Assembly: GCF_024266585.1 (NCBI RefSeq)
Contig: NZ_CP100647.1
Coordinates: 2,151,001 to 2,215,000, forward strand
Reading direction: 5' to 3'
Source of the DNA: Xanthomonas sacchari
GTDB taxonomy: Bacteria > Pseudomonadota > Gammaproteobacteria > Xanthomonadales > Xanthomonadaceae
Length of the DNA: 64,000 nucleotides
Shown here: positions 37,103 through 55,370 of the stretch, in pieces
Numbering within the stretch: the stretch's first letter is position 1
How the letters are laid out: every line of letters starts with the position of its first letter
The notes under the pieces: model-generated
What the model was told of the DNA's origin: nothing
Databases searched by the model: none
Seen by the model: the letters and a program-made list of their open reading frames with translations, nothing else
Position numbers and translations under genes: made by a program

Positions 37103-37134
37103 CCCCATGCACGACGTATGTGTCGTGCATGGGG
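37103..37134 (+). terminator. Perfect 13-bp hairpin between virB3 and virB4
   Basis: CCCCATGCACGAC (37103-37115), loop GTATGT, and GTCGTGCATGGGG (37122-37134). TTGTTCGGTTTTT follows, a broken T-run. It sits in the 167-base gap between virB3 and virB4, the longest gap within the virB run. It may be a partial terminator or an RNA-stabilising hairpin that lowers virB4 expression relative to virB7-B3. Confidence 0.6.
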
Positions 37135-37244
37135 TTGTTCGGTTTTTCGTGTCGGCGCGCGATGGCGGTAGCGCGTGGCTGGCGGTTCCCGGAGCATCTG
37201 CGCCGGGCCTTTGCAAGACGAAACGGATTCTGAGTTATTCCCTT

Positions 37245-40686: not shown

Positions 40687-40700
40687 TGAATACGTATGCA
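40687..40700. promoter_or_regulatory. LacI-type operator TGAATACGTATGCA before the GH13 alpha-glucosidase
   Basis: A near-perfect palindrome centred on TACGTA with a central CG, typical of LacI-family operators. The identical 14-mer occurs at 46083-46096 (inverted) and 48626-48639. Here it lies 92 bases before the start codon. TTGGCG directly before it and TATGTC shortly after could be -35 and -10 boxes, so a bound repressor would block the promoter. Confidence 0.75.
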
Positions 40701-40792
40701 TCTATGTCTGAACTTGAGACATCAACGCTACTCTAACGCGGCGTTTCGCGTGCCTGTCGCACGCGCGATTTCTGCCCGAAGGGGGGCGTTGC

Positions 40793-42403
40793 ATGTCTCA
40801 GGCTCCATGGTGGCGCGGTGCCGTCATCTATCAGATCTATCCGCGTAGCTTCCTCGACGCCAACGGCGATGGCATCGGCGATCTGCCGGGAATCGTGCGC
40901 AAGCTGGACTACATCGCGGCATTGGGCGTCGATGCGATCTGGATCTCGCCGTTCTTCAAGTCGCCGATGGCCGATTTCGGCTACGACATCGCCGACTACC
41001 GCGAGGTCGATCCGCTGTTCGGCACCATGGCCGACTTCGATGCTCTGCTGGCCAAGGCGCATGCGCTGGGCCTGAAGGTGATGATCGACCAGGTGCTCAG
41101 CCATACCTCGGTCGAGCACGGCTGGTTCAAGGAGAGCCGGCAAAGCCGCGACAATCCGAAGGCCGATTGGTACGTGTGGGCCGATGCGCGCGAGGATGGG
41201 ACGCCGCCGAACAACTGGCTGTCGATCTTCGGCGGCGTGGCGTGGCAATGGGAGCCGCGCCGGGGGCAGTACTATCTGCACAACTTCCTGGCGTCGCAGC
41301 CGGATCTGAACTTCCACAATCCGCAGGTGCAGCAGGCGACGCTGGACAACGTCGAGTTCTGGCTGGCGCGCGGCGTGGACGGCTTCCGGCTGGATGCGAT
41401 CAATTTCTGCTTCCACGATCCGCAACTGCGCGACAACCCGCCCAAGCCGCCGGAAAAGCGCGTCGGCCGCGGCTTCAGCCCGGATAACCCGTACGCGTTC
41501 CAGTATCACTACTACAACAATACGCAGGCGGAGAATCTGCCGTTCCTGCAGAAGCTGCGCAGCCTGCTCGACCGCTATCCGGGGACGGTGAGCCTGGGCG
41601 AGATCTCGTCGGAAGATTCGCTGGCGACCACGGCCGAGTACACGCGGGCCGGGCATCTGCACATGGGCTACAGCTTCGAACTGCTGACCGACGATTTCAG
41701 CGCCGCCTACATCCGCCAGACGGTCTCCCGCCTGGAAGCGGCGATGACCGAAGGCTGGCCGTGTTGGGCGATCTCCAATCATGACGTGCAGCGCGCAGTG
41801 ACGCGTTGGGGGCAGGGCGCCGAGACGCCGGCCTTCGCGCGCCTGCTGGTCGCGATGCTGTGCTCGCTGCGCGGCTCGGTCTGCCTCTACCAGGGCGAAG
41901 AGCTGGGCCTGGGCGAGGCGGACGTGCCGTTCGAGGCCTTGCAGGACCCCTATGGCATCGCGTTCTGGCCGAACTTCAAGGGCCGCGATGGATGCCGGAC
42001 GCCGCTGCCGTGGGATGCCGGCGAGCAGGCCGGCTTCAGTACGGGCACGCCCTGGCTGCCGGTCGCGCCAGCGCATCGTGCGCAATCGGTGGCGGCGCAG
42101 GAGGCCGACCCGCAGTCGGTACTGCTAGCGATCCGCCGGTTCCTGGCCTGGCGCAAGCGCCATCCGGCGCTGCGCGAGGGCGACATCGTGTTCCACGAGA
42201 CGGCCGAGCCCGTGCTGATGTTCCAGCGCCGCCACGCGACGCAAACCTTGCTGCTGGCGTTCAACTTGTCCGCCGAGGCCGCCGAGGTGGCGGTGCCGGA
42301 GGGAGCCTGGCAGGCGCTGGAGGTACCGGGCGTGGAGCCTGGGGCGCTCGGCGAGCGCTTGCGTTTGCCCGGCTATGCGATGGTGTGCCTGCAGGGCGCG
42401 TGA
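40793..42403 (+). CDS. aglA: GH13 alpha-glucosidase
   Basis: The protein has 536 residues without a signal peptide, so it is cytoplasmic. It is an oligo-1,6-glucosidase/alpha-glucosidase type GH13: WWRGAVIYQIYPRSFLDANGDGIGD start, nucleophile Asp in GFRLDAINF, acid/base Glu in VSLGEISSED, third Asp in AISNHDVQRAV. The family's usual DQVLSHTS segment is present. It probably hydrolyses maltose and short maltodextrins to glucose after import. Upstream is the LacI-type operator. It is transcribed alone; about 740 bases without a recognisable gene follow. Confidence 0.93.
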   Translation: MSQAPWWRGAVIYQIYPRSFLDANGDGIGDLPGIVRKLDYIAALGVDAIWISPFFKSPMADFGYDIADYREVDPLFGTMADFDALLAKAHALGLKVMIDQVLSHTSVEHGWFKESRQSRDNPKADWYVWADAREDGTPPNNWLSIFGGVAWQWEPRRGQYYLHNFLASQPDLNFHNPQVQQATLDNVEFWLARGVDGFRLDAINFCFHDPQLRDNPPKPPEKRVGRGFSPDNPYAFQYHYYNNTQAENLPFLQKLRSLLDRYPGTVSLGEISSEDSLATTAEYTRAGHLHMGYSFELLTDDFSAAYIRQTVSRLEAAMTEGWPCWAISNHDVQRAVTRWGQGAETPAFARLLVAMLCSLRGSVCLYQGEELGLGEADVPFEALQDPYGIAFWPNFKGRDGCRTPLPWDAGEQAGFSTGTPWLPVAPAHRAQSVAAQEADPQSVLLAIRRFLAWRKRHPALREGDIVFHETAEPVLMFQRRHATQTLLLAFNLSAEAAEVAVPEGAWQALEVPGVEPGALGERLRLPGYAMVCLQGA

Positions 42404-43142
42404 GCGCAGATGGGCGATCGCTGTCGAGGGGAATGCCGCATCGCTGCTGATGCGGCTGCGGCACTGCGGAGAGGCCGTTGGCTGATGTGACGATCCGGCT
42501 CGCACCGGACTGGGCCGTATGCGTGCGGAGGCCACGTCGGCGCCTGAGTGGGTGGTACGGATCGATCCGGAGTGCCGGCATCGGTTGGTGGCATGCGCCA
42601 GCGGCCACGACGTCGCGGTAGGTGCCGCCAGCACACAAGGGCCGATCCAGACACGGCGTTGCTGGTCCACACGATGAACCGCCCGTCGTGCCGCCTATAA
42701 CGCCGCGATGGGGGGGCGCCACGTCGCCGCGTGGGCGTTGCGCCGCACTGTCGGGCATCGTCCCGAGGTCGCCAGGCCCACGCGTCGGCCTCGGCGATCT
42801 GCAACACCGCCTTTCCCGCCGACGCGGGCAGTTGCGCGTGCTCGCGGTCTTCCGCTGCAAGCCATTGTCCACGATGGTGATGCCATGCTTGATCGGCTGC
42901 CGTAGCCCCGCTTTGTCGGAGCCCTATCGTCCGGAGGGCGACCAGGTTGGTCCGGACTCCCGATCGGACGTTCGGGTATGGAGCTTCCTCGCTTTCGGTA
43001 AGAGTAGCGCGCGCGTCCCTGCGAACTACTCGTCTTCCCTCCGGATGACGAAAGAGACTGCCACCGCTGCGCGATCGCGATCTCCCCTCTCGCCGCTGAG
43101 CTCCCAGGCATTCGACCTCACCGCGGCCGCAACCGCGCAACG
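42404..43142. other. 740-base gap without a recognisable gene
   Basis: Several overlapping frames are open on both strands, but none shows a known domain, signal peptide or ribosome-binding site, and codon use is unlike the flanking genes. GC content is more even than in the neighbours. It could be a decayed gene or insertion; no terminal repeats were found. Confidence 0.45.
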
Positions 43143-43174
43143 AAAAAACGCCCGCCGGGTGCGCCGGCGGGCGT
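43143..43174 (-). terminator. Rho-independent terminator of the TonB-dependent receptor
   Basis: On the minus strand ACGCCCGCCGG, a five-base loop and CCGGCGGGCGT are followed by six T. It lies 24 bases after the receptor stop codon. Confidence 0.9.
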
Positions 43175-43197
43175 CGTCTGCATCCTCTAGGCGGGGC

Positions 43198-45948
43198 TCA
43201 GAACTTGTAGTTCACGCCCAGCATGTAGGTGCGTCCCCATTCGACGTACTCCAGCGGGCGGTCCTTGGTGCCGGCGTACGTGCGGTAGGGCGAGTTGGTC
43301 AGGTTGCTCGCCTGCAGCAGCAGGCTCAGCCCGGCCAGGGTGCTGCCGTCGGCGAAGGTGTAGCTGAGCTGGGCGTCGGTGACGTTCTCGCCGACCACAT
43401 AGCGCAGCGTACGGTTGCCATTGAAGTTGCCGATCTCGCCGATGAAGTCCGAGCGCCGCCGCTGGCTGACGCGCGCCTCGAAGCCGTTGCGCTCGTAGTA
43501 GGCGGTGACGTTGTACACGCGCTTGGACAGGCCGGGCAGGTCGATCGGCGCCGAGCCGACGCTGGAGGCGCTTTCCGGATCGAGGATCTTGATGTCGCTG
43601 TCGTTGAAGGTCGCGCTGGCCTGCACGCCGAAGCCGCGCAGGCTGTCGGTCAACATGTCCAACGGCAACGACGCGGTCAGCTCCAGGCCGCGCAAGGTGC
43701 CGCCCTTGCCGTTCTGCGGCGAGGAGAAGGTGCCCGTCGTCTGCACGGGCACGGTCATGCCCGGCGGACGCACATAGCTGGCGAGCAAGGCGGAAAAGTC
43801 GTAGTCGTCGCGCGACTGCGTATAGATGTAGCTCTTCAGGTCCTTGTAGAACACCGCGGCCGCCACGTACGCCTTCTCGCCGAAGTACTTCTCGTACGAC
43901 AGGTCCAGCGCGTTGGCGCGCCACGGGTCCAGCAGGGGATTGCCGCCGCTGCCGCCGGGCTTGCCGGTGGAGGTGTCGACGCCGAAGTCCAGGCCGGCGC
44001 GCATCTGGTCCACGCGCGGCCGCGCCACCTGCTTGGCCGCGGCGAAGCGCAGGGTCTGCTGGTGCGGGAACAGGAAGGCCAGGTTGAGGCTCGGCAGCCA
44101 GTCGTTGTAGGTCTTGCCGGCATCGATCGGCAGCACGTTCTGGCCCGCGGGACGCGATTGGTCGAAGTAGCTGGATTGCGAGCTCTGGTCGGCGTGCTGC
44201 AGCTGCACGCCGATGTTGCCGCGCACCCCGACCTCGCCGATGTCGGTGTTGATGTTGGCGCGGACCCAGGCCGTGGTGATCTTCTCCTGCACGGTCCACG
44301 ACTTCGGGATCAGGTAGTCCAGATTGGTGACCGGATTGAAGCTCATGTAGCGCGAGACCGCCGCCGGCACGTTCCAGGCCGGGATCGTGCCGATGCCGGC
44401 GAAGCCCAGGTTGACCGGGTCGTACTGCAGGTCGCTGGCGATGCTGGTGTCGCCCTGCGCGCCGAGCAGGATGTTGCCCTCGGCCTGGGTCTTCTGCTTG
44501 CGGCGGTCGGCGTAGTTCACGCCCACGTCGATGTCCGAAAACCAGGTCAACGCCTGCGGTGCCGGCAAGGTCGCCGCCAGGCGGCCACCCTTCAGGCGGT
44601 CCTCGACCTCCGGCACCTTGCCGTAGCCGGAGCCGTAGATGGTGTTGGTCAGGAACAGGTCGTTCGGGTTGGAGTAGTCGCGGCCAGGGGTGATCTGCGA
44701 GAAGCCGTTGGGCTTGATCACCAGGCCGACGGTATCGAGCTGCGGCATCGGCACCAGCTGCAGGTTGTTCTCCAGGTTCAACTCCTTGCGGGTCGCCTTG
44801 GAGTAGTTCAGGTCGGCCATCAGGCGCACGCTGCCGAGGTTGAACTCGTTGTTCCAACCGAACGCGTCGATCTTGTCCTTGCGCTTGTTGTACATGCCGC
44901 GCACCAGCGGATACACGCCGCTGGCGGTGCCGCCGGTGAAGCTGCCGCTGGCGTCGACCTGCGGGTTGGTGATCAGCAGGCCGGGCGTGTAGCCGCCGTT
45001 GAAGTTGCTGAGATTGACCTCGAACTGGTTGGCGGTGTCGATCTGCTCGGCTTCGGTATGGAACGCGTCGAAGGTGCTGGTCCAGCTGCTGGACGGACGG
45101 AACTGCACGGTCGCCATCACGCCGTCGCGCTTGTTGTTGCCGGTGCGGCGCAGCGCCTTGATGCCGTCGGAGAAGTAGGTGCCCGGGGCCACGCCGGGAC
45201 GGCTGCCGCTGTCGGTGTTCTGCGTGGTCCACGGCTCGTACAGGCCGACCTGGTTTTCCTGGATCGGCATGTCGCTGTGGGCGTAGCCGATCGAAACGCC
45301 CAGGGTGTTGTCCAGGAACTGGTCGATGTAGCTGGCGCTGAAGCGGTTGCCGAAGGCGTCGACATCGGCGGCCTTGCCGAGCGAGCTCTTCTGCAGGCGG
45401 CCGCTGAGCGCGATCACCCGGTCCGGGAAGCTCAGCGGGCGCACGGTCTGCATGTCGATGGTGCCGGACAGGCCCTGGCCGACCAGGCCGGCATCGGGCG
45501 TCTTGTACACGGTCACGCCGTTGACCAGTTCCGAGGGGTACTGGTCGAACTCGACGCTGCGGTTGTCGCCGGTGCTGACCACTTCGCGGCCGTTGAGCAA
45601 GGTAGTGGCGAAGTCGGGCGACAGGCCGCGCACGCTGATCACCTGGGCGCGGCCGGCGACGCGCTGCGCGGCTAGGCCGGGCAGGCGGCCGAGCGATTCG
45701 GCGATGCTCACGTCCGGCAGCTTGCCGATGTCCTCGGCCGAGATCGCCTCGACGATGGACGTGGCGTCCTGCTTGACCGCGATGGCGTTTTCGATGCCGC
45801 GGCGGATGCCGGTCACCTGGACCTTGTCCAGTTCGGTGACCGGATCGTTGGACGTGGTGGTGGCGGTCTCGGACTGTGCAGCGGCCAGCATCGGCGTCAG
45901 TGCGACGGCCAGCGCCAGCGTCAGCGCGTTGCGCTTGTGGTTCAACAT
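43198..45948 (-). CDS. TonB-dependent receptor of the maltose/starch locus
   Basis: The protein has 916 residues with a signal peptide (NALTLALAVALTPMLAAAQ), the N-terminal ELDKVQVTGIRRGIENAIAVKQ typical of Xanthomonadaceae carbohydrate receptors, a plug with VISVRGLSPDFATTLLNGRE, and a C-terminal barrel ending in GVNYKF. It probably imports maltodextrins across the outer membrane. The ATG at 45948 follows GGGAGGGG by a few bases. The start is 134 bases from the shared LacI-type operator, and a strong terminator follows. The context of GH13, GH97 and MFS genes sets the substrate prediction. Confidence 0.93.
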   Translation of the reverse strand: MLNHKRNALTLALAVALTPMLAAAQSETATTTSNDPVTELDKVQVTGIRRGIENAIAVKQDATSIVEAISAEDIGKLPDVSIAESLGRLPGLAAQRVAGRAQVISVRGLSPDFATTLLNGREVVSTGDNRSVEFDQYPSELVNGVTVYKTPDAGLVGQGLSGTIDMQTVRPLSFPDRVIALSGRLQKSSLGKAADVDAFGNRFSASYIDQFLDNTLGVSIGYAHSDMPIQENQVGLYEPWTTQNTDSGSRPGVAPGTYFSDGIKALRRTGNNKRDGVMATVQFRPSSSWTSTFDAFHTEAEQIDTANQFEVNLSNFNGGYTPGLLITNPQVDASGSFTGGTASGVYPLVRGMYNKRKDKIDAFGWNNEFNLGSVRLMADLNYSKATRKELNLENNLQLVPMPQLDTVGLVIKPNGFSQITPGRDYSNPNDLFLTNTIYGSGYGKVPEVEDRLKGGRLAATLPAPQALTWFSDIDVGVNYADRRKQKTQAEGNILLGAQGDTSIASDLQYDPVNLGFAGIGTIPAWNVPAAVSRYMSFNPVTNLDYLIPKSWTVQEKITTAWVRANINTDIGEVGVRGNIGVQLQHADQSSQSSYFDQSRPAGQNVLPIDAGKTYNDWLPSLNLAFLFPHQQTLRFAAAKQVARPRVDQMRAGLDFGVDTSTGKPGGSGGNPLLDPWRANALDLSYEKYFGEKAYVAAAVFYKDLKSYIYTQSRDDYDFSALLASYVRPPGMTVPVQTTGTFSSPQNGKGGTLRGLELTASLPLDMLTDSLRGFGVQASATFNDSDIKILDPESASSVGSAPIDLPGLSKRVYNVTAYYERNGFEARVSQRRRSDFIGEIGNFNGNRTLRYVVGENVTDAQLSYTFADGSTLAGLSLLLQASNLTNSPYRTYAGTKDRPLEYVEWGRTYMLGVNYKF

Positions 45949-46082
45949 TTTCCCCTCCCAGGCAATGTTGTCTTGCGAAGATCTGAACCGGCGAGGCGGC
46001 CGGATGTGCGTGTCGCGCCGCCGCACGGCGGTGTCGCGATTGCGCTGTATGGTAGACACGCGGCTTCGTCGCGAACGCCCGC

Positions 46083-46096
46083 TGCATACGTATTCA
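46083..46096. promoter_or_regulatory. LacI-type operator (inverted copy) before the TonB-dependent receptor
   Basis: TGCATACGTATTCA is the exact reverse complement of the copy at 40687-40700. It lies 134 bases upstream of the minus-strand receptor start, in the 480-base gap between that gene and the end of the GH97 gene. The rest of the gap shows no other element. Confidence 0.75.
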
Positions 46097-46428
46097 CTGG
46101 AGCGCATCGCATTGGAAGCGCTTTCAGGGCCGCACTGTCGCGTGCACGTCGCGACGCCGGTATCGTTGCGAACAGGCGCATGCTCGATGCGTCGACGTGG
46201 CCCCTCGTGAACGCGCGGACGCGGCGCGGTAGCAGTGCCACGGTTTCGCGCCAGTGCGGGGTTACTGGGGCGCGTTGCGGATGGCACGGCACACGTATTG
46301 CCCAATTGCCCTGCGCCACAGCGCTGTCCTGCCGCGCACGATGGCGTGACGCCGTGCATGTGACCAGGCATCGCGCGCGTGCGCCGCCGACGTGCCGCCG
46401 GCGGCGCCGCATGCGGCACGGTGGCGCG

Positions 46429-48552
46429 CTAGCGCGGCGCGGCCGTGCCGGCGGAGGCCGGCGCCGGATCCAGCGGGACGAAGCGGATCGCCTGGCCGCC
46501 GCCGGGGGCCAGCTTCACCTGCAATCGATCGCCGCTGGTGACTTCGCGCTGCTCGCGCACGAAGTCGAACGGATTGCGCTGGTAGTCGGCGGCATCGCCG
46601 TCGCGGTAGATCTCGGCGCGGTAGCGCACGCCCGGCTCGAGGAAGCCCAGCGCGATCGGCAGGACGCGGCCGTGTTCGTCGGTGATGCTGCCGAGGAACC
46701 AGTCGCGACTGTGCCGGTCCTTGCGCACGATGGTCACGTAATCGCCGACCTCGCCGTCGAGTACGCGGCTGTCGTCCCAGTCCACTGCCACGTCCTCGAT
46801 GAAACGGAAGGCGTCGCGGTGCTGCAGGTAGTGTTCGGGCAGGTCGGCCGCCATCTGGATCGGGCTGTACAGGGTCACGTACAGCGCCAGCTGCCGCGCC
46901 AGCGTGCTCGGAATCGCGCGTCCGTCGCGGCCCTTCAGGCTGAGGATGCCGGGGGTGTAGTCCATGGGGCCGGCCAGCATCCGCGTGAACACCAGATCGA
47001 CTTCGTGCTCCGGCGGATTCGGCGGCTCGCCCCAGGCGTTGTATTCCATGCCGCGCGCGCCTTCGCGCGAGAGCCAGTTCGGGTAGGTACGGCGCAGGCC
47101 GGTATCCTTGATCGGCTCGTGGGCGTTGACCGACAGGTGGCGCTTGGCCGCCTCCTGCACCACCTTGAGATGGTGGCGGGCCATGAACTGGCCATCGTGC
47201 CATTCGCGCCACAGCGGACCGCCGGCCGGATTGCGCCGGTCCACCTGGCCGTCCTCGCAGACGTAGCCGGTCTTGAAGGTGTCCACGCCCAGCCGCGCAT
47301 ACAGATCCAGCGCCGCATCCAACTGGTCCTCGTAGTGTTCCACCGCGCAACCGGTCTCGTGATGGCCGATCAGGTGCACGCCCTTTTTCGCTGCGTAGGC
47401 GCTGAGCGCGGCGATGTCGAAGTCCGCGGTGGGGCGAGTGAAGTCGAAGTCATAGCCGTTGCCGCCCCAGTCGCCGTCCCAGCCGGGGTTCCAGCCTTCC
47501 ACCAGCACGCCGCGGAAGCCGTGCGCGGCGGCGAAGTCGATGTAGCGGCGGGTGTTGGCGGTGGTGGCGGCATGCCTGGGGCCGCGTGCCCAGGTCTGCT
47601 CGTTCAAATGCATTGACCACCACACGCCGACGTACTTGGCCGGATGCACCCAGCTCACGTCGCCCAGCGCATTGGGTTCGTTGAGGTTGAGGATCAGGTT
47701 GGAATCGACCAGGCCGCCGGCGGTGTCGCTGATCTGCAGCGTGCGCCACGGCGTGTCGAAGGGCAGGGCGCGGCGCACCTTCCAGCCTTCCGCCGACGGC
47801 GACAGTTGCGCGTGCAGGCGCTGGCCTTCGCCACGGCGCAGCCACATGCCGGCGTAGTCGACCAGGGCCGCTTCGTGGATGGACAGGTGCAGGCCGTCCT
47901 GGCTGCGCAGGGTGAACGGCGTGTGCGCCAGCGGCACTTCGCGCAGCGGCGTACGCCGGTACAGGTATTCGTAGTGGATGGTGCCGCCGGCCGGGATCCA
48001 CCAGGCGGTCGCATCGGGGACGATGTCGAACTCGGTCAGCTCCTCGTCGATGATCGCTTCCTGCATGCCGGCCTGCTGCGGAAAGCTGTAGCGGAAGCCG
48101 AGCCCGTCGTCGTAGACGCGGAACACCACCGCGAAGCGGCGCTGGCGGCCGCCGCGCTCGCCCAGCTCCACACGCAACTCGTTGTAGTGGTTGCGCACGT
48201 AGCGGCGCTCGCCCCATGGCTGTTCCCAGGTCTCGTCGACGCTGCGGCTGCGCTGGTCCAGCACGGCCAGGTCGCGGTCCAAATTGCCGTCGCGCAACTG
48301 GAAGCCGAGCCGCGAGTCGCCGACCACCGGTTCGCCCAGGCGCAGCACGCGGTAGCTGGGGCGGCCGTCGTCCAGTTGCAGCGAGACCTGCAGGACCTTG
48401 CCGGGCGAGTCGACGCTGGCCACCGTCTGCGGTGCCGCGTGCAGCTGTGGTGCGATGCACAACAGCACGCTCGCCAGCAGCGACGGCAGGCGTCGCGCCG
48501 GACGCGGGCGAAACGCGGGCAGGCGCGACAAAACGTGAAGCGGCAGCGGCAT
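46429..48552 (-). CDS. susB: GH97 alpha-glucosidase (SusB-like)
   Basis: The protein has 707 residues. It starts at the ATG at 48552, after GGGAGGGG, with a signal peptide (PSLLASVLLCIAPQLHAAP). The N-terminal GH97 domain (VLQVSLQLDDGRPSYRV), catalytic barrel (VLVEGWNPGWDGDW, GVDTFKTGYVCEDGQ) and the family Glu motifs NAHEPIKDTGLRRTYPNW and REGARGMEYNAWGEPP are intact. The C-terminal beta domain is present. SusB-type enzymes hydrolyse alpha-glucosidic bonds of maltooligosaccharides in the periplasm. The operator copy lies 73 bases upstream. It is co-oriented with the TonB-dependent receptor downstream. Confidence 0.93.
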   Translation of the reverse strand: MPLPLHVLSRLPAFRPRPARRLPSLLASVLLCIAPQLHAAPQTVASVDSPGKVLQVSLQLDDGRPSYRVLRLGEPVVGDSRLGFQLRDGNLDRDLAVLDQRSRSVDETWEQPWGERRYVRNHYNELRVELGERGGRQRRFAVVFRVYDDGLGFRYSFPQQAGMQEAIIDEELTEFDIVPDATAWWIPAGGTIHYEYLYRRTPLREVPLAHTPFTLRSQDGLHLSIHEAALVDYAGMWLRRGEGQRLHAQLSPSAEGWKVRRALPFDTPWRTLQISDTAGGLVDSNLILNLNEPNALGDVSWVHPAKYVGVWWSMHLNEQTWARGPRHAATTANTRRYIDFAAAHGFRGVLVEGWNPGWDGDWGGNGYDFDFTRPTADFDIAALSAYAAKKGVHLIGHHETGCAVEHYEDQLDAALDLYARLGVDTFKTGYVCEDGQVDRRNPAGGPLWREWHDGQFMARHHLKVVQEAAKRHLSVNAHEPIKDTGLRRTYPNWLSREGARGMEYNAWGEPPNPPEHEVDLVFTRMLAGPMDYTPGILSLKGRDGRAIPSTLARQLALYVTLYSPIQMAADLPEHYLQHRDAFRFIEDVAVDWDDSRVLDGEVGDYVTIVRKDRHSRDWFLGSITDEHGRVLPIALGFLEPGVRYRAEIYRDGDAADYQRNPFDFVREQREVTSGDRLQVKLAPGGGQAIRFVPLDPAPASAGTAAPR

Positions 48553-48625
48553 ATCCCCTCCCAAGGCGACCGTGGCAGCGCAACGACTATAGCCGCGGCA
48601 TCGCATGCCGCCGTTGCGCAGCGCA

Positions 48626-48639
48626 TGAATACGTATGCA
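48626..48639. promoter_or_regulatory. LacI-type operator between the divergent GH97 and glycosidase operons
   Basis: Third copy of TGAATACGTATGCA. It lies 73 bases from the GH97 start (minus) and 153 bases from the plus-strand glycosidase start, so one site may serve both. A TATAGT on the minus strand at 48586-48591 is a possible -10 box for GH97. Confidence 0.75.
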
Positions 48640-48792
48640 AGCGCACGCGCCGCCGTGCCGCCCGTCTACCATGTCCACAGCGCCCCGCGATGCGGAGGCG
48701 GCGACCGCGGCGCCGGCAATGTCGGCCCGTGCTTTCACCACGCAGGCAAAGAGGGAGGGAGGTCGATCGGTGCGAGCCGGTCTGCCGCTTCG

Positions 48793-50994
48793 ATGCTGAA
48801 GATGATCTGCTTGGCCGCCACCTTGGGTGCTGCGGCGTCGGCGTCTGCTGGACAGACGTCATTGCACTGGCGTGGCCAGACCGCGCAGGCCGAGGCCACC
48901 GCCGATGGCGGCTTCGTGCTGCACGCGGCGCACGGCACGCGTACGCTGCCGGCACAGCCGCTGCGCAGCGAGACCGACAGCCCGCTGTTCGATGCGCTGT
49001 TCGCGCTGGCGCAGCAGGAACTGCGCGACGACCAGGTGCAGGCGATTCGCGACCCGGCGTTCGATCACGGCAAGCCGTTGCCGTGCGATTGCTACCAGAC
49101 CGGCGAGCGCTGGCCCTACGTATGGACCCGCGATGTCAGCTATGCCGCGGATCTGGCCCTGGCACGGCTGGACCCGGAGCGCACGCGGCGTTCGCTGCGC
49201 TTCAAGCTGTCGCCGATGCGCGGCGCCGATGCGCTGCCGGGGCTGTTCGTGGCGCAGGACACCGGCTCCGGCGGCAGCTGGCCGGTGAGCAGCGACCGCG
49301 TGGTGTGGTTCCTGGCTGCGCGCCACCTGCTGGACGAACCGGGCTTCGCCGCCGACACCCGCGCCGCGCTCGCCGCCACGCTGGCGCAGGACCGTGCGTT
49401 CGCGTTCGATCCGCGCATCGGCCTGTACCGCGGCGAGACCTCGTTCCTGGACTGGCGCGAGCAGACCTATCCGGCCTGGACCCGCGAGGACGTCGGCTTC
49501 ATCGCCAGTTCCTTCGCGCTGTCCACCAACGTGCTGCACTACCAGGCGCTGCGCCTGGGCGAGCGCCTGGCCCGCGAGCAGGGCGACACGCAGGCGGCCA
49601 CGCGCTATGCCGGCTGGGCCGATGCGCTGCGCCAGGCGATCGCCGAGCGCTTCTGGCGCGAGGACCGCGGCACCTACGTCAGCTATATCGGCACCGCCGA
49701 GCATCCAGTGCGCTACGAAAGCTACGATCTGCTGGGCCTGTCGCTGGCGGTGCTGGCCGACGTGCTGCCCGCCGCGCGCGCGCGCCAGGCGCTGGCGCGC
49801 TATCCGGCGGTGGAGGCGGGCAGCCCGGTGGTGTGGCCGCAGCAGCGCGAGGTACCGATCTACCACAACCGGGCGATCTGGCCGTTCGTCAGCGCCTATG
49901 CGCTGCGCGCGGCGCGGCATACCGACGACAGCGCGCGCATCGACCTGGAAGTGCGTTCGCTGCTGCGCGGCGCCGCGCTGGCCGGCTCGAACATGGAGAA
50001 CTACGAGTTCCTGAGCCAGGCCGCGCATGTCGACGACGGCCCGCTCAGCGGGCCGGTGGTCAATTCGCCGCGGCAGCTGTGGTCGGTGGCCGGCTATCTG
50101 GCGATGGTGGTCGAGGGCGTGTTCGGGGTGGAGGACGACGGCCGCGTGTTGCCCAAGCTGCCCGCCAGCCTGGTGCCGTTGCTGTTCGGCGAGCGCCAGG
50201 AGATCGCCTTGCAGTTGCAGGACCGACGCGTCGTGCTGCGGCGGCCGGCGCAACTGCAGGGCGACCTGCTGGTCGCCGGCGATACCCGCAGCCAGGACGG
50301 CGTGACCACCGTCGATCTGGTCGCGCGGCGCAGCGGTAGCGCGCCCCTGCATGTGCTCGCGGCGGCGGACGTCTTCGCGCCGCTGGCGCCGCCGGCACCG
50401 CAGGTGCGGCGCGAGGCGCAGGGCTGGCGCGTGCAGGCCGCCGCGGACACGCTGCTGTACGTCGATGGGCAGGCGCGCACGGGAAGCGCCGACGGCATGC
50501 TGTTGCCGCTGGCCGAGCGCGTGCAGTGCCTGAGCCTGACCCGGCGCGGGGACCGCTGGGAGTCGCTGCACAGTCCCACCGTCTGCGTCGGCGACGTCGC
50601 GCGCGTGGACGGCGCCGACGACTGGGCGTGGACGGCGCCGCACGATGGCGAATACCGGCTGAGCCTGCGCTACGTCAACGCGCATGGCCCGATCAACACC
50701 GGCGTCACCGCCGCGGTGAAACGCCTGCAGGTGCAATGCGGTGCGGCGTCACCGCAGACGCAGCCGCTGGTGATGCCGCACAGCGTGGGCGAGCAGACCT
50801 CCACGGCGGCGGCGTTCACCCTGCAGGCCGGGCAGCGCTGCCACGCGCGGCTGTTGCCGGCGGCGAACATGAGCGCGCTGCAACACTTCGCGCGCTACAC
50901 CGGCGGGCAGGGCGGCGCCGATGGCGTGGTCAATGCCGCCGATGTCGCCGCACTGTTGATCGCGCCGATCGGCGCTGCCGGAGGTCGCCCATGA
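48793..50994 (+). CDS. Six-hairpin (alpha/alpha)6 glycosidase, secreted
   Basis: The protein has 733 residues with a signal peptide (CLAATLGAAASASAG). The central region has the pattern of six-hairpin glycosidases: YVWTRDVSYAADLALARLDP, RGETSFLDWREQTYP, PIYHNRAIWPFVSAYALRA and NMENYEFLSQ. The C-terminus (about 560-720) is beta-rich. The family assignment is to the fold rather than to a numbered GH family; maltose- or glucan-cleaving activity is inferred from the operon. The ATG at 48793 is used; ATG 48802 is an alternative. It overlaps the MFS gene by 4 bases. Confidence 0.8.
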   Translation: MLKMICLAATLGAAASASAGQTSLHWRGQTAQAEATADGGFVLHAAHGTRTLPAQPLRSETDSPLFDALFALAQQELRDDQVQAIRDPAFDHGKPLPCDCYQTGERWPYVWTRDVSYAADLALARLDPERTRRSLRFKLSPMRGADALPGLFVAQDTGSGGSWPVSSDRVVWFLAARHLLDEPGFAADTRAALAATLAQDRAFAFDPRIGLYRGETSFLDWREQTYPAWTREDVGFIASSFALSTNVLHYQALRLGERLAREQGDTQAATRYAGWADALRQAIAERFWREDRGTYVSYIGTAEHPVRYESYDLLGLSLAVLADVLPAARARQALARYPAVEAGSPVVWPQQREVPIYHNRAIWPFVSAYALRAARHTDDSARIDLEVRSLLRGAALAGSNMENYEFLSQAAHVDDGPLSGPVVNSPRQLWSVAGYLAMVVEGVFGVEDDGRVLPKLPASLVPLLFGERQEIALQLQDRRVVLRRPAQLQGDLLVAGDTRSQDGVTTVDLVARRSGSAPLHVLAAADVFAPLAPPAPQVRREAQGWRVQAAADTLLYVDGQARTGSADGMLLPLAERVQCLSLTRRGDRWESLHSPTVCVGDVARVDGADDWAWTAPHDGEYRLSLRYVNAHGPINTGVTAAVKRLQVQCGAASPQTQPLVMPHSVGEQTSTAAAFTLQAGQRCHARLLPAANMSALQHFARYTGGQGGADGVVNAADVAALLIAPIGAAGGRP

Positions 50995-52475
50995 GGGACG
51001 TGGCCCGCGCCAAGCCGGCGCTGTCGTTCTGGCAGATCTGGAACATGTGCTTCGGCTTCCTGGGCATCCAGTTCGGCTTCGCCCTGCAGAACGCCAACGC
51101 CAGCCGCATCTTCCAGACCCTGGGCGCGGACATGGAGCAGGTGCCGGGGCTGTGGATCGCCGCGCCGCTGACCGGGCTGATCGTGCAGCCCATCGTCGGC
51201 TACCTGTCCGACCGCACCTGGAACCGCTTCGGCCGGCGCCGGCCGTACTTCATGGTCGGCGCGCTGTTCACCACGCTGGCGCTGCTGGCGATGCCGAACT
51301 CGCCGGCGCTGTGGGTGGCGGCCGGCACGCTGTGGGTGCTGGACGCCTCGATCAACATCTCGATGGAGCCGTTCCGTGCCTTCGTCGGCGACCAGTTGCC
51401 GCCGCGCCAGCGCGCCAGCGGCTACGCGATGCAGAGCTTCTTCATCGGCGTCGGCGCGGTGGTGGCGAGCATGTTGCCGTGGCTGCTGGCGCACTGGGGC
51501 GTCAGCAACACCGCCGCCCCCGGCGAGGTGCCGGCGACGGTGCGTTACGCGTTCTACCTCGGCGGCGCGGTGCTGTTCCTGTCCATCGGCTGGACCGTGC
51601 TGCGCACCCGCGAGTATCCGCCCGAGGATCTGCACGGTTTCGACGATGCCGTGCCGGCCGCGCCGGCGGCGCAGCCGCGCCGCGCCGATGTCGCCGCTGC
51701 GCTGTGGGGCGCGGTGGGCATCGCCGGGGGCGCCGCCATCGCCGTCAGTGGCGGCGACCGCATGCTGTACGTGCTGGCCGGGCTGTGCCTGGGCTACGGC
51801 GCGCTGCAGGGGCTGGCGCCGCGCCTGCGCCGCGGGCACATGCTGGCGGCGATCGTCTGCGATCTGCAGACCATGCCGCAGGCGATGCGGCGCCTGGCTT
51901 GGGTGCAGTTCTTCTCGTGGTTCGCGCTGTTCGCGATGTGGATCTACACCACCGCGGCGGTCACCCAGACCCATTACGGCACCCACGATGCGACCTCGGC
52001 CGCATACAACGACGGCGCCAACTGGGTCGGCGTGCTGTTCGCCGCCTACAACGGCTTCGCCGCGCTGGCGGCGATCGCGATCCCGCGGCTGGTGCGCGCC
52101 TGCGGGCTGCGCATGAGCCATCTGCTGAACCTGTGCCTGGGCGCGGCCGGCCTGCTGTCGTTCCTGTGGATCCGCGATCCGCAGTGGCTGCTGCTGTCGA
52201 TGGTCGGGGTGGGCTTCGCCTGGGCCTCGATCCTGTCGCTGCCCTACGCCTTGCTGTCGGACAGCGTGCCGGCGGCGAAGATGGGCGTGTACATGGGTAT
52301 CTTCAATTTCTTCATCGTGATCCCGCAGTTGGTCGCGGTCAGCGTGCTGGGCTTCGTGCTCACGCACTGGCTCGATGGCCGGCCGCTGTACGCGCTGGTG
52401 ATCGGCGGCGGCAGCCTGCTGGTGGCGGCGCTGTGCGTGCTGCGGGTGCCGTCGGATTCGGGAGCAACTGCATGA
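50991..52475 (+). CDS. MFS sugar permease (maltose-type)
   Basis: The protein has 494 residues with about 12 hydrophobic helices. It is typical of the MFS/GPH-like sugar carriers: FLGIQFGFALQNANASRIFQTLG, the cytoplasmic loop GYLSDRTWNRFGRRRPY (MFS signature) and GVYMGIFNFFIVIPQLVA near the end. Related permeases in alpha- and gammaproteobacterial maltose and sucrose loci import disaccharides with protons. The position between two glycosidase genes, with 4-base overlaps on both sides, supports maltose/maltodextrin uptake across the inner membrane. Confidence 0.92.
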   Translation: MRDVARAKPALSFWQIWNMCFGFLGIQFGFALQNANASRIFQTLGADMEQVPGLWIAAPLTGLIVQPIVGYLSDRTWNRFGRRRPYFMVGALFTTLALLAMPNSPALWVAAGTLWVLDASINISMEPFRAFVGDQLPPRQRASGYAMQSFFIGVGAVVASMLPWLLAHWGVSNTAAPGEVPATVRYAFYLGGAVLFLSIGWTVLRTREYPPEDLHGFDDAVPAAPAAQPRRADVAAALWGAVGIAGGAAIAVSGGDRMLYVLAGLCLGYGALQGLAPRLRRGHMLAAIVCDLQTMPQAMRRLAWVQFFSWFALFAMWIYTTAAVTQTHYGTHDATSAAYNDGANWVGVLFAAYNGFAALAAIAIPRLVRACGLRMSHLLNLCLGAAGLLSFLWIRDPQWLLLSMVGVGFAWASILSLPYALLSDSVPAAKMGVYMGIFNFFIVIPQLVAVSVLGFVLTHWLDGRPLYALVIGGGSLLVAALCVLRVPSDSGATA

Positions 52476-54157
52476 TCGATCGGATGTCGCTGCTGGCGCT
52501 GGCCCTGTTGGGGGCCTGTGCCGCGTCCGCGCAGGCCCATGCGCCTGCGCAGGAGGAGTTCTACGGCACGCTCGAGCCGTTCGCCAGCGAGGCGGTGTAC
52601 TTTGTGGTCACCGACCGTTTCGTCAACGGCGACCCGGGCAACGATCACCGCGACCAGGGCGGCGCGCACCGCACCTTTGACATCCCGATCCCGGCGCCGC
52701 CGGGCGAGAGCGACAACATCGGCTACCTCGGCGGCGACTTCAAGGGCGTGGTCGACAACGCCGGCTACATCCGCGACCTGGGTTTCGGCGCGGTGTGGAT
52801 CACCCCGATCGTCGACAACCCCGACCAAGCCTTCACCGGCGGCAAGCCGATCACCTGGGGCAGTTCGCTGAGCGATCGCGGCAAGACCGGCTACCACGGC
52901 TACTGGGGCGTCAATTTCTACAAGCTCGACGAGCATCTGCCGAGCCCGGGGCTGGATTTCGCCGGCTTCACCCAGGCCATGCACGCGCAGCAGCTGAAGG
53001 TGGTGCTGGACATCGTCGGCAACCACGGCTCGCCGGCCTGGACCATGCCCAAGCGGCAGCCGATGTTCGGCCAGGTGTTCGACCGCGACGGCAAGCTGAT
53101 CGCCGACCACCAGAACCTGCCGCCATCCAAGCTGGACCCGGCACACAACCCGCTGCACGCGTTCTACAACACCGGCGGCAACCTGGCGCAACTGTCCGAT
53201 TTCAACGAGCGCAACCCGGCGGTGATGGACTACCTGGTCGGCGCCTACTCGCAATGGCTGGGGCAGGGTGCCGACGCGTTCCGCATCGACACCATCGGCT
53301 GGATGCCGGACAGCTTCTGGCATGCGTTCGTGCGCCGCATCCGCGCGCAGCGCCCGGGCATGTTCATGTTCGGCGAGGACTTCGACTACGACGCGCGCAA
53401 GATCGCCGGCCACACCTGGGCGAACAATGCGGGTGTCAGCGTGCTGGATTTCCCGCTCAAGCAGGCGCTGGCGGCGACGTTCGGACACGCCCGGCGCGGC
53501 TACGAGACGCTGCAGCCGGCGCTGTACATGGAGCGCGGCCCGTACGCCAATCCGTACGAGCTGATGACCTTCTACGACAACCACGACATGGCGCGGCTGG
53601 ACGCCAGCGACGCCGGTTTCATCGACGCGCACAACTGGCTGTTCACCGCGCGCGGCATCCCGGTGATCTACTACGGCTCGGAGACCGGCTTCATGCGCGG
53701 CCGCGCCGAGCATGCCGGCAACCGCAACTACTTCGGCCAGGAGCGGGTGAATGCCGCCCCGTCCAGCCCGATCTTCGCGCCGCTGCGGCGCATCGCCACG
53801 CTGCGCCAGCGCAGCCCGGCGTTGCAGCGTGGGCTGCAGCTCAACCTGCGCCTGTCCGGCGACGAGGCGGTGTTCTACCGCGTGTTCCAGCATGCGGGCA
53901 CCACCCAGACCGCGCTGGTGCTGCTCAACAAGGGCGATGCGCCGCGCACGCTGGAGGTGCGCCGCTACCTGCAGCCCGGCATCTGGCGCGACGGCTTCGA
54001 CGGCAGCGCCACCGAGGTGAGCGATGCGTTGCGCGCCGAGGTGCCGGCACACGGCGTGCGCGTGTTCCTGTCCGATGCGCCGATCGTGCGGCCGGACCTG
54101 CGCGCGCGCCTGCGCTGGCTGATGGCGGCCAAGGACGGGGTCGCGCCGACGCCCTGA
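52472..54157 (+). CDS. GH13 alpha-amylase/cyclodextrinase-type enzyme, secreted
   Basis: The protein has 561 residues with a signal peptide (LLALALLGACAASAQA), so it acts in the periplasm or outside. GH13 motifs: GFGAVWITPI, LDIVGNHGS, nucleophile Asp in GADAFRIDTIGW, acid/base Glu in MFMFGEDFD and the third Asp in FYDNHDMARLD. The early VYFVVTDRFVNGDPGND is common in cyclomaltodextrin glucanotransferase-like enzymes. It likely cuts starch or maltodextrin. It is the last gene of the plus-strand operon and convergent with the regulator. Confidence 0.92.
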   Translation: MIDRMSLLALALLGACAASAQAHAPAQEEFYGTLEPFASEAVYFVVTDRFVNGDPGNDHRDQGGAHRTFDIPIPAPPGESDNIGYLGGDFKGVVDNAGYIRDLGFGAVWITPIVDNPDQAFTGGKPITWGSSLSDRGKTGYHGYWGVNFYKLDEHLPSPGLDFAGFTQAMHAQQLKVVLDIVGNHGSPAWTMPKRQPMFGQVFDRDGKLIADHQNLPPSKLDPAHNPLHAFYNTGGNLAQLSDFNERNPAVMDYLVGAYSQWLGQGADAFRIDTIGWMPDSFWHAFVRRIRAQRPGMFMFGEDFDYDARKIAGHTWANNAGVSVLDFPLKQALAATFGHARRGYETLQPALYMERGPYANPYELMTFYDNHDMARLDASDAGFIDAHNWLFTARGIPVIYYGSETGFMRGRAEHAGNRNYFGQERVNAAPSSPIFAPLRRIATLRQRSPALQRGLQLNLRLSGDEAVFYRVFQHAGTTQTALVLLNKGDAPRTLEVRRYLQPGIWRDGFDGSATEVSDALRAEVPAHGVRVFLSDAPIVRPDLRARLRWLMAAKDGVAPTP

Positions 54158-54305: not shown

Positions 54306-55370
54306 TCAGCCGCGCAGCGAGGAGCCGCGCAGCGCCAGCGTCACCGGCAAGGTGCGGCTGCTCACCGGCTGCCCGGCGATCTGCGCCAGCAGGGTCTCCA
54401 CCAGCACCGCGCCGGCCAGCTTGGTGTCCTGCTGCACGGTCGACAGCGCCGGGTCGACGCTGGCCGCCACCGGGATGTCGTCGAAGCCGGCCAGGGCCAC
54501 GTCCTCGGGCACGCGCAGCCCGTGCTCGCGCAAGGCCTTCAGCGCGCCGATCGCGATCAGGTCGCTGGCGGCGAACAGCGCATCGAAGCGCTCGCCGCGG
54601 CCGAGCAGGGCCAGCGCCGCGGCGTAGCCGGACTGTTCGGTGGTGATCGCGTCGACCTGCAGCGCCGGCGTGGCCTCGGCAGCGGCCGTGCGCAGCGCCT
54701 GCAGGTGGCCGCGGTAGCGTTCCAGGAATTCGGGGTAATGGTTGGAGGCGTCGCCGAGGAAGGCGATGCGGCGGCGGCCCTGCGCCAGCAGGTGCGCGGT
54801 GATGTCGTGGCCGCCCTGGAAGTTGTCGCTGCCGATCGACACGCCCGGCTGCCCGGGCAGCACCGCGCCCCAGCGCACGAAATGGATACCCTGGTCGACC
54901 AGGTGCTGCAGCCGCTGTTGCGCCTGCAGGTAGTCGCCGTAGCCGAGCAGGATCAGCCCGTCGGCCTTCTGGCTGTCGCCGTAGTCGGCGCGCCAGTTGT
55001 CCGACAACTGCTGGAACGACACCAGCAGGTCGTAGCCATGGCGGGCGCAGGCGCGGGTGATCGACCCCAGCATCGAGTGGAAGAACGGGTTGATCAGCGA
55101 GTCGTCGGTGGTCGGGTCCTCGAAGAACAGCAGCGCCAGGGTGCCGGCATTGCGCAGGCGCAGGCTGGAGGCGTGCTTGTCGACCTTGTAGTTCAGCTCG
55201 CGGGCGATCGCCAGGATCTTGCGCCGGGTCTGCTCGTTGACCGCCGGGCTGCCGCGCAGCGCGCGCGAGACGGTGGGTTGCGACACGCCTGCCAGGTAGG
55301 CGATGTCCAGCGATGTGGCCTTGCCTTTGATGACGGCGCGTCCGATGCGGAGAAAACGTGACCGAAGCAT
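54306..55370 (-). CDS. LacI-family transcriptional regulator of the maltose locus
   Basis: The protein has 354 residues from the ATG at 55370. The N-terminal LacI helix-turn-helix is KATSLDIAYLAGVSQPTVSRALRG (residues 17-40), the hinge follows with NYKVDKHASSLR, and the periplasmic-binding-protein-like sensor has SDLIAIGALKALREHGLRVPEDVALAGFDD near the end. Given its place at the edge of the maltose locus and the palindromic TGAATACGTATGCA sites, it is the likely regulator; this pairing is inference. The N-terminal extension before the HTH is somewhat long (about 15 residues). It is divergent from thrS. Confidence 0.9.
   Translation of the reverse strand: MLRSRFLRIGRAVIKGKATSLDIAYLAGVSQPTVSRALRGSPAVNEQTRRKILAIARELNYKVDKHASSLRLRNAGTLALLFFEDPTTDDSLINPFFHSMLGSITRACARHGYDLLVSFQQLSDNWRADYGDSQKADGLILLGYGDYLQAQQRLQHLVDQGIHFVRWGAVLPGQPGVSIGSDNFQGGHDITAHLLAQGRRRIAFLGDASNHYPEFLERYRGHLQALRTAAAEATPALQVDAITTEQSGYAAALALLGRGERFDALFAASDLIAIGALKALREHGLRVPEDVALAGFDDIPVAASVDPALSTVQQDTKLAGAVLVETLLAQIAGQPVSSRTLPVTLALRGSSLRG

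Follow-up and report, generated by a model that had tools for sequence, protein, structure and literature searches.

A polar, promoter-phased 14-mer in Xanthomonas sacchari and its relatives: probable activator site of a MalR-type LacI-family regulator of alpha-glucan genes

The 14-mer TGAATACGTATGCA, which occurs three times in a sugar locus of Xanthomonas sacchari, is a directional site in phase with the predicted promoter, a property overlooked when an initial annotation of the same DNA read it as a LacI-type operator. The best explanation, and in our judgement a probable one, is that it is the polar site of a MalR-type LacI-family activator and marks an alpha-glucan regulon. Annotation had allowed no more than the guess that a LacI repressor lay close to sugar genes; the result is now a defined regulon with one near-invariant site and an unlinked amylase gene, amy, added to it. 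The locus and its induction by sugars have already been published; the regulon defined by the site, with amy included, and the polarity are added here. The locus lies in the window, by which we mean the whole stretch of 64,000 nucleotides analysed, and comprises the following features:

40687..40700, + strand: site 1, TGAATACGTATGCA, beginning 106 bp ahead of the ATG of the GH13 alpha-glucosidase gene
40729..40734, + strand: predicted -10 TACTCT of the GH13 promoter, offset 43 from the start of site 1
40793..42403, + strand: GH13 alpha-glucosidase gene (PF00128)
43198..45948, - strand: TonB-dependent receptor gene (TIGR01782 above cut-off)
46049..46054, - strand: predicted -10 TACCAT of the receptor promoter, offset 43 from site 2
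46083..46096, - strand: site 2, TGAATACGTATGCA, oriented toward the TonB-dependent receptor gene
46113..46126, strand not applicable: second, different LacI-style palindrome, 16 bp upstream of site 2
46429..48552, - strand: GH97 alpha-glucosidase gene (PF10566, PF14508, PF14509), ATG at 48552
48586..48591, - strand: possible -10 TATAGT for GH97, offset 49, on the reverse side of site 3
48626..48639, + strand: site 3, TGAATACGTATGCA, between the divergent GH97 gene and GH15-like unit, facing the GH15-like unit
48667..48672, + strand: predicted -10 TACCAT of the GH15-like/MFS/GH13 unit, offset 42 from site 3
48793..50994, + strand: gene for an amylo-alpha-1,6-glucosidase/GH15-like protein (weak Pfam matches only)
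50991..52475, + strand: MFS sugar transporter gene (PF07690)
52472..54157, + strand: gene for a second GH13 enzyme (PF00128)
54306..55370, - strand: gene for a LacI-family regulator, MalR type, start codon predicted; putative binder of the site

Sites 1 and 2 precede the GH13 and TonB-dependent receptor genes, as the initial annotation had it; site 3, which it had placed at a GH97/glycosidase divergent pair, faces the plus-strand gene at 48793 and has GH97 on its reverse side. The distance from site 1 to the ATG is identical in those 10 of the genus loci examined that possess the GH13 gene. The -35 positions of the GH13 promoter (GTCTGA, 40706-40711) and of the receptor promoter (CGTTCG, 46072-46077) are both poor. 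As a separate observation, GH97 in this locus has no forward site of its own; in two related loci (L038 and L040, from genomes G015 and G017) GH97 was not found between the sites or was present as a fragment only, and the site is kept nonetheless. Upstream of the sugar locus, 37107-39716 encodes a VirB4-like type IV secretion ATPase (PF03135, PF19044).

The three copies are exact at the coordinates and on the strands given above, in agreement with the initial annotation, and they are the only exact copies in the whole genome (4,889,028 bases, one contig), in which the reversed, not complemented, control pattern has 0 matches. With a zero-order model at 66.4% G+C and both strands counted, 0.004 copies are expected per genome and 0.00006 per window. 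At up to three mismatches the window yields the three known sites alone, each on both strands (6 matches), compared with a mean of 1.58 in shuffled windows; since 6 was nevertheless reached in 2 of 100 shuffles, the strength of the 14-mer lies in its exact identity and genome-wide uniqueness. Genome-wide, the same search returned 52 matches (24 forward, 28 reverse) versus 29 for the reversed control, and matches with three mismatches are therefore mostly noise. A motif frequent in unrelated promoters, or one not kept before orthologous genes, would have spoken against a regulatory role; 3 of 3 exact genomic copies fall in the sugar locus, and the motif is kept before the orthologous genes in the loci examined.

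The 14-mer has TG..CA ends and a CG centre, as LacI-family sites do, but where an even palindrome is usual for the family it is asymmetric at positions 3 and 12. When N was allowed at both positions, 67 of 75 family sites among the matches listed were exactly TGAATACGTATGCA; the symmetric forms TGAATACGTATTCA and TGCATACGTATGCA also occur. Asymmetry is thus preferred, not obligatory. A plain symmetric operator was rejected as a description of the site, because the asymmetric form dominates and mostly in one orientation.

Polarity was analyzed in a family collection of 181 oriented sites (159 exact), reduced to 135 by removal of flanks with at least 60% identity. The collection omits own-genome loci L005-L026, L043, and L119-L123, all symmetric forms, one-mismatch forms beyond seven named, exact duplicates, and sites near a contig end; in many family genomes it draws on the sites among the matches listed, and it includes 120 regions chosen for spread over genera, so that its counts per class of site are no census. 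In the alignment of the 135 sites, the 14-mer is nearly invariant and is preceded by A in 60%, a -10-like hexamer stands at 43-48, the -35 is weak, and nothing is conserved farther upstream. Promoters were predicted by scoring the best -10 hexamer in a 74-position window with a fixed sigma-70 matrix, its values taken from general knowledge. The best predicted -10 lies at offset 42-45 from the first base of the site, 28-31 bp past the last base of the 14-mer, in 101 family sites out of 135, and outside this range in the other 34; 200 shuffles of the downstream flank gave a mean of 6.9 and a maximum of 14. Offset 43 alone accounts for 62 of the 135 sites, and the commonest hexamer is TACCAT (58/135). 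In the forward direction the -10 is found at 42-45 in 95 of 129 sites, versus 4 of 129 in the reverse direction (6 sites were skipped because their flank was too short or another site lay close by).

A gene like those of the locus lies downstream of 152 of the 181 family sites, and a gene of target type lies on the reverse side of 53, some of these being divergent pairs. With site classes assigned by similarity to the proteins of this window and to amy, the phasing was found in 45/48 sites before TonB-dependent receptor (TBDR) genes, 13/15 before GH13 alpha-glucosidase, 7/7 before GH15-like, 9/10 before amy, 19/29 before MFS, 2/2 before GH97, and 6/24 before unclassified genes. It thus holds across non-homologous promoters with different hexamers.

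A second set came from a profile scan of named genomes, in which 576 relatives were ranked by their likeness to an Alteromonas-type regulator and the best 80 were used. These best 80 are mostly from Alteromonas, Paraglaciecola/Glaciecola, Colwellia, Shewanella, Pseudoalteromonas, and Rheinheimera and their kin; four Pseudoxanthomonas/Lysobacterales records (L385, L393, L394, and L404) overlap with the family, and the set is not fully independent of it. The count of 101 sites, which includes symmetric ones on both strands, fell to 80 when symmetric and edge sites were dropped and to 64 after removal of redundancy. Among these 64 non-redundant sites from the best 80 of 576 loci, the best -10 is at 42-45 in 26 and elsewhere in 38 (shuffle control: mean 3.7, maximum 10), with forward exceeding reverse by 24 to 3 in the 60 sites that remain when 4 are skipped for the reasons given above. 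In the same set, TTGT stands at 20-23, the place expected of a -35 at a spacing of 17 bases, and a locus-like gene follows 70 of the 80 sites.

Nine unclassified loci were tested, and seven of them precede alpha-glucan or uptake genes, encoding a pullulanase X25 protein, two CBM48 amylases, a carbohydrate phosphorylase, two TBDR plug proteins, and a sodium:solute symporter; the genes downstream of the remaining two encode a tryptophan halogenase-like protein and glucose-6-phosphate dehydrogenase. Among the individual cases, L129 and L130 have sites before a gene assigned as tryptophan halogenase-like, in L129 by Pfam and in L130 by a similar N-terminus, and neither shows an evident -10 at 42-45. 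The one-mismatch form before glucose-6-phosphate dehydrogenase (L211) and the exact site before the symporter gene (L241) may each be a real target or chance.

The sole copy with one mismatch in the X. sacchari genome, TGAATACGTATGTA at G000:C1:4248974, has its first base 138 bp before the start codon of amy, which encodes an alpha-amylase (PF00128), presumably extracellular judging from the description of XAC0798 and from its N-terminus. It is a fourth, unlinked site in addition to the three reported earlier. Sixteen amy loci were found in the genus: 13 carry TGAATACGTATGTA, 1 the exact TGAATACGTATGCA, and 1 a form with two mismatches; the remaining one, in which the amy match is partial, has no site. 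Because the regulator-negative genomes of the genus are also without amy, they offer no retained amy gene at which the site could have been lost.

The product of 54306-55370 matches PF00356, PF13377, and PF00532 above cut-off, which corresponds to a LacI helix-turn-helix joined to a periplasmic-binding-protein-like core. Its distribution follows that of the site. Within the genus, TGNATACGTATNCA is present in 16 of 20 genomes (three sites in 15, four in one) and absent from 4, and an ortholog of the LacI protein (87-100% identity) is found in exactly the same 16; the 4 motif-less genomes have just a paralog with 40-42% identity, which is present also in 12 of the 16 motif-positive ones. Of 119 family genomes, 85 have the motif and 89 a regulator match (E <= 1e-60; the weakest best match is 53% identical), and 40 of 54 family genera sampled have the motif. 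The strict motif is present in 83 of 89 regulator-positive versus 2 of 30 regulator-negative genomes, raw counts taken irrespective of kinship from lists crossed by hand, with ten of the 30 negatives identified by subtraction. The six regulator-positive genomes without it (G037, G073, G082, G109, G112, and G129) all have one-mismatch forms, in five cases TGAATACGTTTGCA; the two exceptions of the opposite kind are G042, whose genome is 83% complete, and G097, with the site TGGATACGTATCCA. Differences within genera (g1, g3, g4, g6, g9, g32, and g33) point to repeated joint gain or loss of site and regulator.

Beyond the family, 369 genomes of the class were searched. The exact 14-mer is present in 16 of these genomes, four of them family members. 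The other 12 fall into two groups: six with at least three copies or a divergent pair (G271, G275, G298, G387, G478, and G482) all have a regulator 52-60% identical to that of the window and orthologous to it by similarity, whereas in six with 1-2 scattered copies (G172, G281, G365, G371, G425, and G433) no regulator was found at E <= 1e-40. This search covered 44 selected genomes and matched 10, namely the six and four genus genomes with the paralog. Around the regulator loci of the named genomes (best 80 of 576), a site with at most one mismatch was present in the flank searched in 63 of 80 and absent from it in 17; the reversed control gave 0. As a side observation, locus L298 of G365, a genome without a regulator match, has TACCAT at offset 43 from a site that precedes a TBDR-like gene (26% identity); it lies near a contig end in a genome that is 94% complete, and is possibly contamination.

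The recognition helix of the window regulator reads VSQPTVSRAL, and VSQ(P/A/S)TVSR is found in 167 of 167 ortholog loci read; the first variable position is Q in all of them, whereas 7 paralogs read have E or K there. Seventeen genomes have TGAATACGTTTGCA among the matches listed, and in 15 of these the helix has QA followed by SRVL, with QS in the other two (G051 and G116). The association of this variant with the QA helix type is suggestive only: of 12 QA...SRVL genomes fetched that lack a listed TGAATACGTTTGCA, only G063, G064, and G095 were searched for mismatched forms, and none of the three has it among the matches listed; G129, which combines a QA...SRVL helix with other one-mismatch site forms, was set aside. 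Co-occurrence and recognition helix together lend good support to the pairing, put forward in the initial annotation, of a LacI-type alpha-glucan regulon with the 54306-55370 gene, and we consider it very probable, as far as sequence comparison can tell, that the MalR-type regulator binds the 14-mer. Autoregulation was rejected, because a site with at most one mismatch was found upstream of the regulator gene in 0 of 167 loci, in a search reaching up to 350 bp before the matched stretch.

With the start of the -10 set as -12, the 14-mer spans about -54 to -41. In the mechanism that we propose, a dimer of the regulator would sit there, its centre near -47.5 and five bases upstream of the weak -35 region. 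It would sense a breakdown product of alpha-glucans, the presumed effector, and in the effector-bound state would help RNA polymerase at an otherwise weak promoter whose -10 lies at a nearly constant distance. The regulon would comprise the GH13 alpha-glucosidase, the TonB-dependent receptor, the GH15-like/MFS/GH13 unit, probably the divergent GH97 gene, and the unlinked amy. The weak -35, the tight spacing, the single main orientation, and the lack of an autoregulatory site favour activation, and we regard activation by a MalR-type regulator, predicted on these grounds, as the probable mode. The directional, phased site favours it over the repression-and-release picture of the initial annotation. 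The predicted -10 offsets (42-45 in 101 of 135) place the site upstream of the -35 at a set distance, the geometry of the activator class; the classical repressor geometry, with the operator overlapping the core promoter or downstream of it, was not seen at the predicted promoters. A symmetric dimer should bind both orientations alike, and hence something beyond binding, such as contact with polymerase, bending, or a second protein, would have to read the direction. More tentatively, and with slightly less than even confidence, we suggest that a homodimer reads the asymmetric site as a direction code, the half-site variants being promoter-distal and promoter-proximal and the whole regulon polar and class II-like. 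The dimer would then dock polymerase one way only, in Xanthomonadaceae and in Alteromonas-like bacteria.

The alternative with most in its favour is a classical repressor: apo-MalR on the site would block polymerase just upstream of the -35 and leave upon binding of malto-oligosaccharide, and the spacing would mean merely that the site is kept where blocking is most effective. Among the LacI-family members covered by a survey, nearly 90% regulate sugar genes locally, and most bind DNA in the ligand-free state (PMC4052901); the authors of the Xanthomonas studies called or supposed the regulator a repressor (PMC1790865, PMC10714752), and induction by maltose or starch is compatible with either mode. 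Against repression speak a near-fixed distance and one-way orientation to the predicted -10 at non-homologous promoters in two genome sets, with the whole 14-mer upstream of a -35 that is itself weak; the 0 of 167 regulator genes with a site of their own also contrast with the 72% of the LacI-family regulators studied that are given as autoregulated in the same survey (PMC4052901). We consider repression unlikely, at roughly one chance in four.

It is much less probable that another protein reads the site and that the LacI gene merely travels with the locus. Site and regulator gene are often linked, joint gain and loss would yield co-occurrence, and some sites, for example the one at amy, are far from the regulator gene. 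Against this reading stand the LacI-family form of the motif (TG, CG centre, CA), the presence of the ortholog in 6/6 class genomes with at least three copies or a divergent pair and in 0/6 with 1-2 scattered copies, the helix Q in 167/167 ortholog loci compared with E or K in 7 paralogs, and the occurrence of TGAATACGTTTGCA with a QA helix in 15/17 genomes among the matches listed. That the 14-mer recurs by chance, or belongs to some repeated element with no role in regulation, has nothing but its short length to recommend it; this we regard as next to impossible, given 0.004 expected copies per genome, flanks without strong conservation beyond the -10, and a conservation (40 of 54 family genera; 152 of 181 sites before locus-like genes) that contradicts it. 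The polar activator site remains the reading that we prefer.

Activation by LacI-family proteins has been studied on Cra, among others. For CcpA, sites upstream of the -35 are described as activating and promoter-overlapping ones as repressing, with exceptions such as lev (PMC3463425), and activation by AraQ/MalR1 is discussed likewise (PMC6882875); the proposed regulator would resemble both in activating from upstream of the -35. As described there, cre sites are degenerate semi-palindromes that repress or activate according to position, whereas the 14-mer hardly varies, is asymmetric, and keeps mostly to one position and orientation.

Related loci have been reported in Xanthomonas. They include an XCC2469 receptor of X. 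campestris that is induced by maltose, with a regulator called a repressor by annotation (PMC1790865), and in Xanthomonas citri the rise on starch of XAC0798, 2596, 2597, 2599, 2600, and 2602, with the authors' suggestion that XAC2595 might repress the starch genes (PMC10714752). XAC2598, the counterpart of the gene faced by site 3, is not among the starch-induced genes named in that part of the report; its neighbours are, with XAC2597 and XAC2596 next to it and XAC2599 (GH97) on the other side (PMC10714752). The words operator, binding site, and promoter and the stem palindrom- do not occur in the main text (PMC10714752). The XCC2469 and XAC2595-2602 loci, with XAC0798, are equated with our locus by gene order and kind; as described, they match it in the kinds of genes present, one for a LacI protein included. 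Their regulator was assumed to repress, whereas an activator is proposed here. In Shewanella, a LacI-type MalR has predicted sites before a TonB receptor gene, malZ-glcP, susB (GH97), and malT-cga (Rodionov et al., 2010, PMC2996990). The kinds of target are the same when compared by description, the letters of the site appearing only in a figure logo; polarity and phasing to the -10 are not stated in the available parts of that paper (PMC2996990). Of three Shewanella regulator loci, two carry TGAATACGTATGTA, with TTGT in the place of the -35 and a TAACAT or TACTAT hexamer near 43; in the remaining one no site with up to two mismatches is present. The 14-mer was not found in print in the open-licence literature searched, in which only an 11-base string turned up, in papers on other subjects by title; nor did the listings from that literature yield an operator study of the regulator or binding, footprint, transcription-start, or regulator-mutant data.

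The proposal makes a sharp prediction: bound to its polar site at about -47, this member of the LacI family should act as an activator. If it is true, the 135 family and 64 named-genome non-redundant sites would form a large natural data set on LacI-family activation. The proposal also bears on the way in which starch use is turned on in Xanthomonas relatives and in some marine bacteria.

The second palindrome of the receptor promoter reads TGAAAGCGCTTCCA here, on the minus strand, and TGGAATCGATTCCA in most congeners read. Its position there suggests a second regulator at this promoter; its other near matches in this genome do not point to a clear regulon. The palindrome is also present at the receptor promoters of L253, L255, L257, L259, L261, L263, L265, L038, and L040.
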